From Crystallibacter degradans (GTDB lineage: Bacteria; Actinomycetota; Actinomycetes; Actinomycetales; Micrococcaceae), in assembly GCF_012952295.1 (NCBI RefSeq), contig NZ_JABBCH010000001.1, positions 727,480 to 791,479 on the forward strand: 64,000 bases of DNA. The letters are read 5' to 3'. Positions 30,736-36,332 of this stretch are shown in pieces; position 1 is the first letter of the stretch; each line of letters opens with the position of its first letter. Under the pieces are notes generated by a model. It worked only from the letters and a program-made list of their open reading frames with translations. It ran no database searches and was not told the origin of the DNA. Both the position numbers and the translations under genes were made by a program.

Positions 30736-32391
30736 TCAGGCTGCTTGGCGGTAGATGAAGTCGATGCGGCCCAGCGCCTGCTCGAAGACTGAGAACGGCT
30801 CCACTGTCTCGTCCGGTTGTTCCGCCGCCGGTGGCGTGCCAGGCAGGGCTGGTGCGGTTGACACGTAGGTGTGTCCGGTCGGGGTGGTCGTTTCGACGGT
30901 GTGCCGCGGACCGGGGACGCTTCGGGCGTGCCAGCCGTCGGTTTCTTTCGCCAGGTTACATGCTTCACATAGCCCTTGCCCGTTGAGCTCGCTGGTCGCC
31001 CCGGCGTCGCGCCAGGGCACGACGTGGTCGTGGTGGCGGATCGGTGCGTCGCACCAAGGTGTGCGGCAGAGCTGGTCCCTGGCCTGGATCATGCGCTGCA
31101 TTCCGGACGGCATTAACCGCGCCCGCGAGTCCATGCCGAGCAGTTGTCCGGTGCCCGGCGCGGTGTACAGCCGGCGCACCCACACTTCCACCTCCGACTC
31201 ATCGGCCCCATCGCCTGAGGCTCTTCGCTCCGAGCCTGGCGGCCCGGTTGCCGTACCGGTTTCTTCGGTGTTTCCGGTGTCGGCACCTGCATCGTTGGCC
31301 GGTATGGGTTCGGCTGTGTCTGGCGGGCCGGATGCCGTAGCGCCGTCCCCGTTGCCGGCATCCGCTGTGCCGGCAACGAATTCGTCTTCCCCGGCGACGC
31401 CATTCATCGGCTTACTGTCGGCGGAGGCGTCCGTGCCGCCGTTCGCGTTGTCGTGGTCGGTGTTGCCGGTGCGGAGGAGGTCGCGGGCCCATTGGGCGGG
31501 GACGATGCCGTACCCGGCCAGACGGGCAGGTTCGGAGTCGCCTTGGAACAGGGTGCGGTCGGTCATGACCAGCTGCACCTCGATTTTTGCGGGATTCTCG
31601 GCTGGTTGGCCGGTGACGCGTTCGACGAGGATGTCGGCCATGAGCTGGCCCCGGCCTCGTTCATCGCCCTGCGCCTTCAGCCGGTCGGCTTCCTTGGCCA
31701 GGGCCGCGTGGACGGCCACGCCCTGTACCACCGGCAGCAGGCAGCTCACCTGGGCCATGGTGTCCGGCGCGGGACGGCAGGAGACATGGCGTTCGGTTTC
31801 GGCTTTCGCGGCCCGGCGGACCACCGACAGCGGATCCAGCCGCAGCGCGGCCTGCTTCGCCAGCGCCCCGATCCGCTTGTCCCCGCAGCCGCGCAGCGTC
31901 TTCGGATCAGCACACAATTCCCGGTCGACGCGGGCCCGGTCTTCCACGCTCAGGCACGCGGTTTCGCGGACCAGGATGGTCGCCCGCCACTCGTTCAGCC
32001 GGCCCTCCGCCAACGCCTTATACGAGTGCGGCATTTCCCTGATCAGCGTGGTGGCCATGCCCAGGTGCTTACCGCCCCGGTTCGGGGAGTCCTTGCGTGC
32101 CAGGCCGATCTCCTTGGCCAGGCCCCGGCCCTGCTTCTCCGCCGCGACCCCGGCCGCTGCCCGGGTTTCCCGGCGGGACGCAGCAAACGCTTCCGTCTCG
32201 CGCGCCTGCGCGGCAGCCGCGGCGGCCTTGAGTTCCTCCAGTGCGGTAATCCGGTCAATCCGCACCCCCTCGGAGGCGTCCTGGTCCATGTTCGCCAGTT
32301 CCAGGATCGCGGCGCGGATCAGTCCAGCACCAGGATCACCGGGGACCGGCTTAACCGGATCCATCTCTGCTGGAACGATTGACTCGAACAT
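30736..32391 (-). CDS. DUF222/HNH endonuclease-like protein (13E12 family)
   Basis: 551 residues. DUF222 occupies the N-terminal two thirds (LEELKAAAAAAQARETEAFAASRRET..., DSRARLMPSGMQRMIQ near its end), followed by an HNH nuclease motif with zinc Cys (CRTPWCDAPIRHHDHVVPW, then CEACNLAKE). A low-complexity segment rich in Asp, Gly, Thr and Pro (about residues 360-440) interrupts it. Start ATG 32389-32391 lies seven bases after a -10 TAGAAT. These proteins exist in many paralogous copies in actinobacterial genomes, and behave like a repeat family; cellular role unknown. A second copy ends the window. Confidence 0.9.
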   Translation of the reverse strand: MFESIVPAEMDPVKPVPGDPGAGLIRAAILELANMDQDASEGVRIDRITALEELKAAAAAAQARETEAFAASRRETRAAAGVAAEKQGRGLAKEIGLARKDSPNRGGKHLGMATTLIREMPHSYKALAEGRLNEWRATILVRETACLSVEDRARVDRELCADPKTLRGCGDKRIGALAKQAALRLDPLSVVRRAAKAETERHVSCRPAPDTMAQVSCLLPVVQGVAVHAALAKEADRLKAQGDERGRGQLMADILVERVTGQPAENPAKIEVQLVMTDRTLFQGDSEPARLAGYGIVPAQWARDLLRTGNTDHDNANGGTDASADSKPMNGVAGEDEFVAGTADAGNGDGATASGPPDTAEPIPANDAGADTGNTEETGTATGPPGSERRASGDGADESEVEVWVRRLYTAPGTGQLLGMDSRARLMPSGMQRMIQARDQLCRTPWCDAPIRHHDHVVPWRDAGATSELNGQGLCEACNLAKETDGWHARSVPGPRHTVETTTPTGHTYVSTAPALPGTPPAAEQPDETVEPFSVFEQALGRIDFIYRQAA

Positions 32392-32398
32392 ACATTCG

Positions 32399-32427
32399 AT
32401 TCTACTGCGGCGTGACGGAGCGCACAA
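32399..32427 (-). promoter_or_regulatory. Sigma-A-type leaderless promoter of the DUF222/HNH gene
   Basis: On the minus strand a -35 TTGTGC (32427-32422), a 17-base spacer and a -10 TAGAAT (32404-32399), then seven bases to the ATG. Near-consensus spacing, and no Shine-Dalgarno. Confidence 0.6.
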
Positions 32428-32497
32428 CAACGACAGGTGGCGGTGGATAACCCTCAGTCCCATTCCCATTGGATTTAGAGAAGAGGGCATGAATAAA

Positions 32498-32510
32498 TAC
32501 AATTAGAACC
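32498..32510 (+). promoter_or_regulatory. Leaderless-type promoter of the HTH regulator
   Basis: TACAAT (32498-32503), seven bases, GTG 32511; AT-rich surroundings and no ribosome-binding site. Confidence 0.5.
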
Positions 32511-33248
32511 GTGAAAAATGAACGGAACTCCACGGCGCAATTTGGGCTACACCAAGGCCCTGCGCCTGCCACTTCGGAGGGGGCACCACGCTCATTAACG
32601 AGCGCTCAATCCTTAGTCTTGCAGGCGCTGGTAAGCCATGGCGGCCCAGCCAAAATCGCTGAGCTGTCCGCCATTACGAAGCTGCATGGAAACACCGTCC
32701 GTGAACACCTGAATGCTTTGGCCAAGACTGGTCTGGTCCGGCACCGCGTGGAGGCGCCGCTCGGACGGGGGCGGCCGTCGTCGTTATTTGAAGCTGTCCG
32801 GGCTCACCAGCCAACAACTGAACTCGCTGTGGCCCTGGCAGCGGAGTTATCGGACGCAGCGTCCGATCCCGCTGCTGCTGCGGTACGGGCGGGCCGTGTT
32901 TGGGCGGCCATGGACCGTTCGGACGGGAGGGTCGGCGATACCTCCCGCCCCGCTCTTGAGCAGGTCCTGCAACGCTTGACCGAGCACGGCTTCGTGCCAC
33001 TCCCCCAAAAGGCAACGCAGGATGCCTCGTCCGGCAAGGTGGATATCCACTTGCGCGAGTGCCCGATGCTGGCGGCAGCGCGGGAGCAACCTGAAGTGGT
33101 GTGCAACGTACATTTAGGCCTGGTCCGCGGCTGGCTGGAAGACCATGGAGGCACCGCAGCAGACCTTGAGCCTTTCGCCGGATCCGGTTACTGCACGGTC
33201 AGGCTGACGGACACATTGGATTCGAGCGGAAGAGCGGATAACTCATGA
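32511..33248 (+). CDS. HTH regulator with SufR-like Cys/His metal-site region
   Basis: 245 residues. A winged HTH (LTSAQSLVLQALVSHGGPAK, then ITKLHGNTVREHLNALAKTGLV) is followed by a sensor region. Near the C-terminus Cys residues fall at ECPML, VVCNV and GYCTV, spaced C-x13-C-x13-H-x15-C if the intervening His (EDHGG) is counted. SufR-type repressors carry an Fe-S cluster on a C-x12-C-x13-C-x14-C array, so this looks like a variant with His at the third position. It overlaps the nitrite reductase fusion by four bases (ATGA) and probably regulates it, responding to NO or iron. Ligand and cluster are inferred. Confidence 0.8.
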   Translation: MKNERNSTAQFGLHQGPAPATSEGAPRSLTSAQSLVLQALVSHGGPAKIAELSAITKLHGNTVREHLNALAKTGLVRHRVEAPLGRGRPSSLFEAVRAHQPTTELAVALAAELSDAASDPAAAAVRAGRVWAAMDRSDGRVGDTSRPALEQVLQRLTEHGFVPLPQKATQDASSGKVDIHLRECPMLAAAREQPEVVCNVHLGLVRGWLEDHGGTAADLEPFAGSGYCTVRLTDTLDSSGRADNS

Positions 33249-35917
33249 CAACCCCGGCGCCGGCACAGACCTCCCGACCGGCAAGTCGGTCCTCGTGGCA
33301 CCGCAAGGCCAGCCTGCCGGTCACCGTGTGGTTCGTGCTGTTGATTGTTCTGGCGATCGTCCACCCGTTCGTCCCCGAATCGCGGTGGCTGCTGGTCCAC
33401 ATGTTCACGCTGGGCATGGTTACCAACTCCATCCTGATCTGGAGCCAGCACTTCACCGAAGCGCTGCTGAAGAACCGCTTGCCGGACACGGCGCGCGCCG
33501 TGCAACTGTGGCGCATCCGGACCTTGAACGCCGGGATTGTGGTGACCGTTGCCGGCGTTCTTTCCGGCATCTGGCTCCTGACATTGATCGGCGCCGTGGT
33601 GGTGGGCGGTTCTGTTGCCTGGCATGCCGTTCATCTGATGCTGCAACTGCGCCGCGCGTTGCCATCACGGTTCGCGACCACGGTGAAGTTCTATATAGCA
33701 GCAGCGCTGCTACTGCCGGTCGGGGCCGCTTTCGGGGCGGCGCTGGCGTACGGTTTGAGCGACGCAGCCCATGCCCGGCTCCTGCTGGCACACCAGGTGA
33801 CCAATCTGCTTGGTTTCGTGGGACTGACGGTAATCGGCACGCTCATCACCCTCTGGCCCACCATTCTGCACACCCGGATGCCCGCGGGAATGGACCTGGC
33901 AGGTTGGCGCAGTTTAATTGCGATGGCCGCCGGGCTGGCGATTTCGGTGCTCGGTGCGCTGGTCGGGCTGGCTCCGGCCGCAGCCGCCGGCGTACTGCTT
34001 TATCTGCTCGGTGTGGCCTACATTGGCGTGTATATTGTCCGCTGCGCCTTGGCCAAGCGGCCGGACGACTTTCCCGGTTTTTCGGTCGGAGCAGGGTTGG
34101 TGTGGCTGGTTGGTTCGCTGGTCGCGCTCTTCACGATGCTGATCTCCGGGCCGCTGGATCCGCATCGGCTCGGAGAACTGACCGCGCCGTTCGCTGCCGG
34201 GTTCGTGGCCCAGGTACTGCTGGGCGTCATGGGCTATCTGATGCCTGCAATTATGGGCGGAGGCCCTGCGGCGGTTAAGGCGGCCAACGCGCAGATGAGC
34301 AAATTTGCCATGCTGCGTACCGCCGTCGTGAATTTTGGTTTGCTTGTCTGCCTGCTTCCGGTACCCAGCTTGGTGCGGGTCATCGTGTCCGTGCTGGTGC
34401 TGTTGGCCTTCGCCTCGTTCCTGCCGCTGATGTTCCGGGCAGTGAAGGCATCTGTTGCGGGGCGGAAGGCGGTGCTGGCCAATGGCGGCAAGCCGCTGCC
34501 GCTGCAGGTCGAAGCTGCGCCGCGACCGAAGAACCATCTTGCCTGGGGCGCCGCAGGAGTGATCCTGGTGCTGCTCGGCGCGGCTGGAGGCGTGGCCATG
34601 GATCCTGCTGCGCTGTCCGGTTCCACCGCTCCTGCCTCCGCAGTGGAGCCCACTGGCGAAACCACTACGGTCCGGGTGTCGGCCAACAATATGCGCTTCT
34701 CGCCCGCCTCCGTGGATGTCCCCGAGGGCAACCGGCTGGTCATCGAACTGACCAACGAGGACCCCACCACGGTGCACGATCTGAGGCTGGCCACGGGGCA
34801 GGAATCCGGCCGGCTCTACCCGGGTGAATCCGCCACCATCGACGCGGGCATCATCGGCACGAACGTGGAAGGCTGGTGTACCGTGGTGGGCCACCGCAGC
34901 CAGGGCATGGGCTTTAAGATCAACGTGGCCGGCTCCGCCGAGGCCGAGAGCGCAGCGGATGCTGGAAGCCAGGCACAGGATCCGGCCGGCGGCCATGCAA
35001 ACCACCTGAACAACGACGACGGCACGGCAGCTCCCGCGGGCGCGCTGGATTTCCATGCCCGGCCGGGCGAAGACTTCGAGCCGCGTGCGGCAGAACTGTC
35101 ACCGGCGGCGTCAGGCACCACGCACAAGCTGACCCTCAACGTCGAGGAGCTGGCGCAGGAGGTGGCTCCCGGCGTCGTGCAGCAGGCCTGGACCTTCAAC
35201 GGCCGCGTCATGGGGCCCACGCTGCGGGGCAAGGTCGGCGACAGATTCGAAATCACGCTAGTCAACAACGGAACCATGGGCCATTCGGTGGATTTCCACG
35301 CCGGCGCCGTTTCCCCGGACGAGCCCATGCGGACCATTCCGCCGGGCGAATCGCTGATCTATGAGTTCACGGCAGAGCGTTCCGGCATCTGGCTTTACCA
35401 CTGCGGCACGATGCCGATGTCGGCCCACATAGCCTCGGGCCTGTTCGGGGCCGTGATCATCGATCCGGCAGACCTGCCTGAGGTAGACAAGGAGTTCCTA
35501 CTGGTCCAGTCCGAGGCCTATCTCGGCGAGCAGGCCGGGCCGGTAAACGTGGACAAGATTTCTGCCGAAGACCCCGACATCGTGATGTTCAACGGCCACG
35601 CCACGCAGTACATGCACCACCCGCTGCAGGTGAAGGCGGGTGAGCGCGTGCGCATCTGGCTGCTGGCCGCCGGTCCTTCCCGCGGCACCAGCTTCCACGT
35701 GGTGGGCGGGCAGTTCGACACGGTGTTCAAGGAAGGGGCCTACCTGCTGGAACCGGATAACGCGGAGCAGGGCGGGGCGCAGGCCCTTGACCTCGCGGCT
35801 GCGCAAGGCGGATTTGTCGAGCTCGAGTTCGCGGAGGCCGGCCGGTACACGTTCGTCAACCATGCCTTTGTGGATGCCGAGCGTGGCGCCATGGGGGTCA
35901 TCGAAGTGGTTGACTAG
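33245..35917 (+). CDS. Membrane-anchored copper nitrite reductase fusion (NirK-type)
   Basis: 890 residues in three parts. Residues 1-445: eleven or so membrane helices of NnrS-like character (LLVHMFTLGMVTNSILIW, VTNLLGFVGLTVIGTL, GFVAQVLLGVMGYLMPAI, with several His). Residues about 470-560: an extra cupredoxin with type 1 copper ligands His, Cys, His, Met (TTVHDLRLATG, GWCTVVGHRSQGM). Residues about 620-890: a two-domain NirK core with MGHSVDFHAGAVSPDE and YHCGTMPMSAHIASGLFG, ligands intact, plus FHVVGGQFDTVF. NirK reduces nitrite to NO. Classic NirK is soluble and secreted; here it is tethered by an N-terminal membrane domain, with the catalytic part facing outward. Coupled by ATGA overlap to the regulator. 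Confidence 0.85.
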   Translation: MTTPAPAQTSRPASRSSWHRKASLPVTVWFVLLIVLAIVHPFVPESRWLLVHMFTLGMVTNSILIWSQHFTEALLKNRLPDTARAVQLWRIRTLNAGIVVTVAGVLSGIWLLTLIGAVVVGGSVAWHAVHLMLQLRRALPSRFATTVKFYIAAALLLPVGAAFGAALAYGLSDAAHARLLLAHQVTNLLGFVGLTVIGTLITLWPTILHTRMPAGMDLAGWRSLIAMAAGLAISVLGALVGLAPAAAAGVLLYLLGVAYIGVYIVRCALAKRPDDFPGFSVGAGLVWLVGSLVALFTMLISGPLDPHRLGELTAPFAAGFVAQVLLGVMGYLMPAIMGGGPAAVKAANAQMSKFAMLRTAVVNFGLLVCLLPVPSLVRVIVSVLVLLAFASFLPLMFRAVKASVAGRKAVLANGGKPLPLQVEAAPRPKNHLAWGAAGVILVLLGAAGGVAMDPAALSGSTAPASAVEPTGETTTVRVSANNMRFSPASVDVPEGNRLVIELTNEDPTTVHDLRLATGQESGRLYPGESATIDAGIIGTNVEGWCTVVGHRSQGMGFKINVAGSAEAESAADAGSQAQDPAGGHANHLNNDDGTAAPAGALDFHARPGEDFEPRAAELSPAASGTTHKLTLNVEELAQEVAPGVVQQAWTFNGRVMGPTLRGKVGDRFEITLVNNGTMGHSVDFHAGAVSPDEPMRTIPPGESLIYEFTAERSGIWLYHCGTMPMSAHIASGLFGAVIIDPADLPEVDKEFLLVQSEAYLGEQAGPVNVDKISAEDPDIVMFNGHATQYMHHPLQVKAGERVRIWLLAAGPSRGTSFHVVGGQFDTVFKEGAYLLEPDNAEQGGAQALDLAAAQGGFVELEFAEAGRYTFVNHAFVDAERGAMGVIEVVD

Positions 35918-35963: not shown

Positions 35964-36332
35964 ATGGACGCCAGCGACGAACTGATCGAACTGGAACAGC
36001 GCGGCTGGATAGCCCTGTCATCCGGGGGTCAGACCGCGGCCGAGTTCTACCAGGCGATGTTGGACGCGGAAGTGGTGATGCTGCTGCCCGGCGGGACGCG
36101 CCTGACGGACCGGAGCCTGACCATCGAGGCCATGAGCGGCGCGCCGTGGTCGGACTTCCGGCTCGAAGTCCCCCAGGTTTTGTGGCCCACCGCGGAGACA
36201 GGCGTCATAACCTACGGCGTTACCGCGCATCGCGACGGCCAGCCGGAATATTCGGCCCTTGTCAGCACCTTGTATGTCCGTCGCGACGACGGCTGGAAAG
36301 TGTCCTTTCACCAACAAACCCCGCGCTCATAA
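35964..36332 (+). CDS. SnoaL/DUF4440-like (NTF2-fold) protein
   Basis: 122 residues with an NTF2-like pattern: an N-terminal helix (ELIELEQRGWIALSS), the pocket strand DAEVVMLLPGGTRLTDRSLTIEAM, SDFRLEVPQVLWPTAETGVITYGVTAHRDG, and a last strand STLYVRRDDGWKVSFHQQTP. This order matches DUF4440/SnoaL-like small-molecule binders or isomerases, some acting on ketosteroids. GGGGGA precedes ATG 35964. It lies 46 bp after the nitrite reductase fusion and could share its transcript, but nothing else ties it to nitrite. A hairpin overlaps its stop codon. Confidence 0.8.
   Translation: MDASDELIELEQRGWIALSSGGQTAAEFYQAMLDAEVVMLLPGGTRLTDRSLTIEAMSGAPWSDFRLEVPQVLWPTAETGVITYGVTAHRDGQPEYSALVSTLYVRRDDGWKVSFHQQTPRS

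Follow-up and report, generated by a model that had tools for sequence, protein, structure and literature searches.

A NirK-type protein of Crystallibacter degradans with a predicted oxidase-fold membrane domain and a likely iron-sulphur regulator

What might a large membrane domain contribute when it is built into the same chain as a copper nitrite reductase, and how might such a protein be controlled? These questions are raised by a locus in a stretch of 64,000 nucleotides (hereafter the window) from Crystallibacter degradans (assembly GCF_012952295.1, contig NZ_JABBCH010000001.1, positions 727,480 to 791,479), in which a gene for a helix-turn-helix (HTH) regulator is joined to a gene for an 890-residue protein composed of a membrane domain, an extra cupredoxin and a NirK core. 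An original prediction, made from the window's letters alone, had described this layout. Its open reading frames (ORFs), their overlap, the fusion and the ligands of the extra cupredoxin were borne out by our analysis, while the identity that it gave to the membrane domain (NnrS-like) and a fourth type 1 copper ligand in the core were not. We judge the probability to be evenly balanced that the fusion is a membrane-tethered NirK-type protein that reduces nitrite to nitric oxide (NO) outside the cell, receives electrons via an oxidase-fold domain and has its expression set by an iron-sulphur regulator. This proposal builds on features read in the sequence, namely the fusion, complete residue sets for the type 2 site and for the type 1 site in the extra cupredoxin, the ATGA overlap, and the conserved regulator cysteines and start-codon element, and on two predictions from a structural model, the oxidase subunit I fold and the outward placement of the copper domains. 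The features of the locus, in window coordinates, are the following.

32498..32513, + strand: TACAAT-N7-GTG, a likely -10 element, spaced to give the regulator gene a leaderless transcript and forming part of a conserved promoter/palindrome element
32511..33248, + strand: HTH regulator gene, 245 residues, GTG start, winged HTH, SufR-like cysteine arrangement
33060..33194, + strand: predicted cluster-binding segment C184-x13-C198-x2-H201-x26-C228, from conservation in regulator relatives
33245..33248, + strand: ATGA, regulator stop overlapping the start of the NirK fusion, exact in the ORFs
33245..35917, + strand: membrane-cupredoxin-NirK fusion gene, 890 residues, ATG start
33281..34480, + strand: membrane domain, residues 13-412, 12 predicted transmembrane (TM) helices, modelled with the fold of haem-copper oxidase subunit I
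33398..33400, + strand: H52 in TM2, invariant (121/121 aligned proteins; 30/30 including standalone relatives)
33791..33793, + strand: H183 in TM6, invariant (121/121 aligned proteins; 30/30 including standalone relatives)
34535..34600, + strand: TM13, residues 431-452, predicted crossing of the chain to the outside
34640..34939, + strand: extra cupredoxin, residues 466-565, type 1 positions H511, C545, H550 and M555
35120..35917, + strand: NirK core, residues 626-890, with type 2 His 685, 719 and 873, D683 and H818, and type 1 H680, C720 and H728
35441..35443, + strand: Leu733, where most relatives have Met as the axial residue for the type 1 copper of the core

The three-part arrangement recurs far beyond chance, with 660 matches at E <= 0.001; the best 120 were aligned together with the window protein (121 proteins in all). 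For a scan of named genomes we used the best 80 of 553 relatives, ranked by whole-protein match, which favours fused forms, and found the three parts in the same order in one chain at all 80 loci. The nearest named relatives are Arthrobacter crystallopoietes (92%) and Arthrobacter sp. VKM Ac-2550 (97%); full-length homologues were present among the listed matches, and Cutibacterium porci and Acidipropionibacterium are within the 80 fused loci. The fusion architecture is indeed already known, common and partly described in actinobacteria: a NirK of about 900 residues from Propionibacterium (Cutibacterium) acnes, comprising a cupredoxin and a transmembrane domain of 400 residues that is called "of unknown function", is reported in the accessible part of PMC4770552, where neither the fold of the transmembrane domain nor a regulator is given. 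The window protein resembles this long NirK in its transmembrane domain of about 400 residues, its CX4HX4M cupredoxin and its NirK core, and differs from it in the axial ligand, which is Leu and not Met in the lineage of the window, and in a regulator gene that abuts NirK directly. It is also like HdNIR of Hyphomicrobium denitrificans (2dv6, 6tfd), its best fold match, in the succession of an N-terminal cupredoxin and a NirK core, but the solved HdNIR chain has no membrane domain. Fusions of NirS in Chloroflexi are the subject of PMC8756737, as far as its accessible part indicates. No published account of the fold, the regulator or the start element was found in a literature covered mostly at abstract level and with few subscription papers. 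What we add is the predicted fold of the transmembrane domain, its split-gene relatives, the likely kind of the regulator and the start element.

The membrane domain also occurs outside the fusion. In a sample of 396 Actinomycetota genomes searched at E <= 0.001, the membrane family was found in 53 (the window's genome included) at 59 places. Leaving out the window, 58 places remained, and flanks were fetched at 34 of them; at seven the domain shared one frame with cupredoxin and NirK and at 27 it was unfused, some of the flanking contigs being short, so that absence there means little. A NirK gene lay near the unfused membrane gene in 6/27 cases (L049, L052, L055, L056, L062 and L069; 159-338 bits with TIGR02376), a separate small cupredoxin gene in 3/27 (L055, L056 and L057; weak cupredoxin matches at L046 were left out of the counts), and a regulator homologue in 4/27 (L058, L059, L066 and, as a weak 22-bit partial match, L057), the one at L066 overlapping the membrane gene by 4 bases. 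The parts are therefore not always found as unlinked genes, being fused in the window and its relatives and with NirK close to the standalone gene in those six cases. At L045 and L050, standalone membrane-family genes lie near genes for a cupredoxin and a laccase-like oxidase; these neighbours were considered as NirK and dropped on account of their laccase-like WHCH motif. The membrane domain has a gene of its own in the deeper Actinomycetota. Taking a TIGR02376 score of at least 130 bits, a threshold chosen in this analysis, to denote a strong NirK, we found one in 52/396 genomes; 38 genomes had both NirK and the membrane family, 15 the membrane family only, 14 NirK only and 329 neither (38/53 versus 14/343; Fisher P 4e-29, uncorrected for phylogeny). 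In relatives, each of the separate NirK genes inspected brings its own N-terminal hydrophobic segment, and TM13 of the fusion may for this reason correspond to that anchor.

Are the copper sites those of a nitrite reductase? In the alignment, H511, C545, H550 and M555 of the extra cupredoxin are each present in 121/121 proteins, and H680, D683, H685, H719, C720, H728, H818 and H873 of the core are likewise unvaried in 121/121. From alignment to solved enzymes, we take H685, H719 and H873 to be the type 2 copper ligands and D683 and H818 to be the catalytic pair; the core aligns to the solved nitrite reductases 2dv6 and AniA. Pfam placed Cupredoxin_1 at residues 469-533 and Cu-oxidase_3 at 640-741 of the fusion, and simple motif patterns fitted 79/80 (extra cupredoxin) and 78/80 (core H-x-x-D-F-H) of the named loci. 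When the predicted model was searched with Foldseek, the top matches were 2dv6, 6tfd and 6tfo, followed by 4kns, in agreement with a NirK fold, and the best solved structural matches were the three-domain nitrite reductases of Hyphomicrobium. Type 1 ligands had been claimed for both cupredoxin-type units; the set is complete in the extra cupredoxin, whereas the core has three of four (H680, C720 and H728), with Leu at the axial position 733. Of the aligned proteins, 93/121 have Met here and 28/121 have Leu, the latter including the window protein and the three closest to it; in the named loci, Met is found in 73/80 and Leu in 7/80. The axial Leu of the core in 28/121 proteins stands beside an axial Met in the extra cupredoxin that never varies. 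An axial Leu raises the potential of a type 1 copper site, as Leu733 would do in the core.

Leu at 733 might also indicate that the core, though of NirK ancestry, does not act on nitrite and is a copper oxidase or some other enzyme, its axial Leu being as in laccases. Two further findings speak for this alternative and against a nitrite-reducing core: the NirK model TIGR02376 scores the protein at 164 bits, below its cut-off of 296.3, the axial Met being missing, and a laccase-like neighbour takes the place of NirK at 2/27 standalone loci (L045 and L050). However, the TIGR02376 cut-off is passed by only 5/396 Actinomycetota genomes and may for that reason miss the clade to which the window's NirK belongs, D683, H818, H685, H719 and H873 are conserved in every aligned protein, and the best solved and structural matches are nitrite reductases, so that we regard a non-nitrite enzyme as improbable.

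The predicted model of the 890-residue protein (mean predicted local distance difference test, pLDDT, 90.2; predicted template modelling score, pTM, 0.63) gives the membrane domain a fold like that of haem-copper oxidase subunit I, with twelve helices, and the fusion a thirteenth, the count being read from the helices of the model. Loops before odd-numbered helices contain 17 Lys or Arg residues versus 3 before even-numbered helices, and on this positive-inside pattern the N-terminus is predicted to be inside and the copper domains outside, which supports, as a prediction, the earlier claim of a NirK with membrane helices and copper domains outside the cell. The subunit I fold is pseudo-symmetric and in haem-copper oxidases carries six histidines for the low-spin haem, the high-spin haem and the second metal. 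Among 30 membrane-family members, standalone and fused, H52 and H183 are the only invariant histidines (30/30), versus seven in three CcoN/NorB-type sequences; residue 185 is His in 16/30, and standalone relatives often have HxH at the H183 site. Y150 is also invariant and Q323 is found in 27/30. The oxidase histidine set is not conserved in the family, as judged by conservation and not by superposed coordinates, and in this the domain differs from CcoN/NorB, a binuclear centre not being expected.

Sequence comparisons placed the domain near the oxidases only faintly. By hhalign, TM6 with H183 fell on the TM10 HxH motif of CcoN and on that of a COX1 set, with weak E values of 0.028 and 0.08; TM10 aligned on TM10 of the three-sequence CcoN/NorB-type set, again weakly (E 0.011); and one presumed NorB gave a short unrelated stretch only. 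The family profile had no match among PDB sequences at E <= 10. A Pfam scan found COX1 at E 5e-5 in 1/30 family members, and the PF00115 model weakly touched three (G003, G001 and G028; 24.9-31.3 bits, below cut-off, places matched by coordinates), a weak match that was not reproduced by a Pfam scan of two of them. NnrS (PF05940) is a polytopic membrane protein linked to nitrogen oxides, and the domain had been called NnrS-like. This identity was rejected: PF05940 matched 0/30 family members at E <= 1, hhalign against a Pfam-verified NnrS gave E 0.39, and the domain differs from NnrS in having no sequence match in any test. A phylum search with PF05940 yielded zero matches in 100 genomes, yet its 14 controls were equally silent, so that this result carries no weight. 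In the S. meliloti pSymA region, a 452-residue membrane protein without Pfam match (L076:3232-4590) lies near a verified NnrS gene; hhalign finds it similar to the membrane family (E 8e-4), with second half aligned on first half.

What the membrane domain does can be weighed against this conservation. Because the histidines of the haem-copper reaction centre are not conserved, NO consumption within the domain is unlikely, and we hold it to be very improbable that NO formed by NirK is bound or reduced there and that the fusion converts nitrite to nitrous oxide, since enzymes of that type share the histidine set in question. The absence of most oxidase histidines also means that the domain may be inert, which counts against electron transfer through it. 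It is possible, if tentatively so, that the domain is a degenerate oxidase relative that acts only as an anchor, docking surface or copper-loading factor, with electrons arriving from a membrane-bound cytochrome or another cupredoxin: two invariant histidines in place of seven fit such a role, as does the report in the accessible part of PMC4770552 that the copper of the N-terminal cupredoxin is dispensable in a related enzyme. Against it stands the retention of H52, H183, Y150 and, nearly always, Q323 in standalone and fused members alike, which goes beyond an anchor's needs. As a hypothesis, the originally proposed electron relay through the added copper centre is plausible.

How might expression of the fusion be controlled? 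The regulator has a MarR/ArsR-type winged helix at residues 29-81, the segment that Pfam assigns to a winged HTH, and among 57 regulator sequences C184, C198 and H201 are found in 57/57 and C228 in 56/57. Rv1460 SufR has the same combination of a winged HTH and three cysteines, with a spacing of 13 + 28 versus 14 + 30 here, and in the accessible part of PMC6034842 its C203, C216 and C244 are described as required for function and proposed as cluster ligands. The window protein differs from SufR in its score with the cyanobacterial equivalog model TIGR02702 (13.8 bits, far under the cut-off of 178.8) and in its gene partner, which is NirK and not suf. From its conserved residues, the regulator is likely an iron-sulphur protein of a SufR-like kind. 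A paralogue with 37% identity is encoded elsewhere in the same genome (G000:C1:161419-162090), in surroundings where the ORF list was uninformative.

Upstream of the regulator start, relatives share the sequence AatTTAcTACAnTnaatTCCGTGgAAAAtA (26 sites). The element was found via palindrome and k-mer counting, after which a fixed pattern, TACANT-N7-RTG, was counted in preference to start-finder output, which gave no start for 10/41 genes and some wrong picks. Among 41 loci in which the regulator gene is complete, 29 have the pattern, 26 times in frame and three times out of frame, versus 0.15 expected from 20 mononucleotide shuffles per segment, the 41 loci being related and not independent events. 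The window copy, TACAATTAGAACCGTG, lies at 32498, and a perfect upstream palindrome, AATTTACTACAGTAAATT, was seen in three mycobacterial loci (L115, L125 and L128). The conserved element is likely a leaderless promoter/palindrome at the regulator start. Six genomes other than the window's were scanned at <=3 mismatches, and each (6/6) had one site, which by coordinates was the regulator's own start, with zero for the reversed control; as its own start is the sole site, the regulator likely acts as a local self-regulator.

That the fusion is coupled with its own regulator gene agrees with the named loci, 37/80 of which have a regulator homologue upstream in the same orientation; at L146 a further upstream copy, missed through ORF limits, was read by hand, at L144 and L154 the gene is divergent, and at L114, L123 and L124 it is downstream with lower scores. 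The regulator directly precedes the NirK gene in the window and in L077, and ORF limits indicate the same for L138 and L155. In 33/37 loci a third membrane protein of about 365-400 residues sits between the two; it is upstream of NirK in 43/80 named loci (44 with L136, added by hand) and had no Pfam match and one NCBIfam match far under the cut-off. In 20/33 cases the regulator stop before this gene reads ATGA, GTGA or TTGA, so that the next gene could start in a four-base overlap. Its profile found no match in the window's genome in a run that had no positive control. His 41, 266, 280 and 307 are invariant in 13 sequences of this protein (L101:3874-5001, L102:392-1498, L133:3937-5028 and others; alignment A5), and by hhalign the protein shows a weak relationship to the membrane domain of the fusion (E 0.006). 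As for the window's other neighbours, an HNH-endonuclease gene (30736-32502, - strand) adjoins the regulator divergently, with no evident link to nitrite, and a small DUF4440/SnoaL-like protein is encoded just downstream of the fusion (35964-36332, + strand).

In the mechanism that we propose, H52 and H183 would bind a single redox cofactor of the membrane domain, either haem b or copper, and electrons supplied by the quinol pool or by the bcc-aa3 chain would pass through the domain towards the type 1 copper of NirK. NirK would be co-translated with the regulator, whose cluster would be lost or altered under NO or low iron, with release of its own promoter. The window's genome (G000) has narG and a single COX1-type gene; no additional COX1-type gene, as a candidate for an NO reductase, was found with a Pfam model that scores a presumed NorB at 255.6 bits, nor was NosZ found above its cut-off, other NO-consuming enzymes being outside this search, and on these grounds NO would be the released product. 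Of the original interpretation, a NirK-type protein with predicted membrane helices, copper domains predicted to face outward and a conserved regulator gene are retained, and the NnrS-like label falls away. Several findings weigh against this mechanism, in addition to the low NirK score, the laccase-like neighbours and the missing oxidase histidines. The accessible part of PMC4770552 describes such an N-terminal cupredoxin as too far away for electron transfer and a mutant as more active, and that of PMC6034842 reports that cysteine variants of Rv1460 showed wild-type repression in a reporter strain, so that the cluster need not control DNA binding. Furthermore, 15/53 membrane-family genomes are without a strong NirK, the fetched flanks of 37/80 named loci have no regulator homologue, the regulator accompanies only 2/7 fused loci of the Actinomycetota sample (L037 and L038), the start element is absent from 12/41 regulator loci and the window copy has degenerate palindrome arms.

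The predicted oxidase fold, the two fixed histidines, the split-gene form, the likely Fe-S-type regulator and the candidate promoter element make the transmembrane half of the actinobacterial NirK directly testable, and they bear on NO production by actinobacteria, here in a genome without a detected COX1-type NO reductase. A more specific reading, which we consider rather unlikely, is a one-chain quinol:nitrite oxidoreductase in which an oxidase-fold subunit without an oxygen centre would feed NirK via the tethered cupredoxin, under an NO-reading Fe-S self-repressor at a leaderless promoter. If this were true, actinobacteria would gain a self-contained, self-limiting source of NO at the cell surface.

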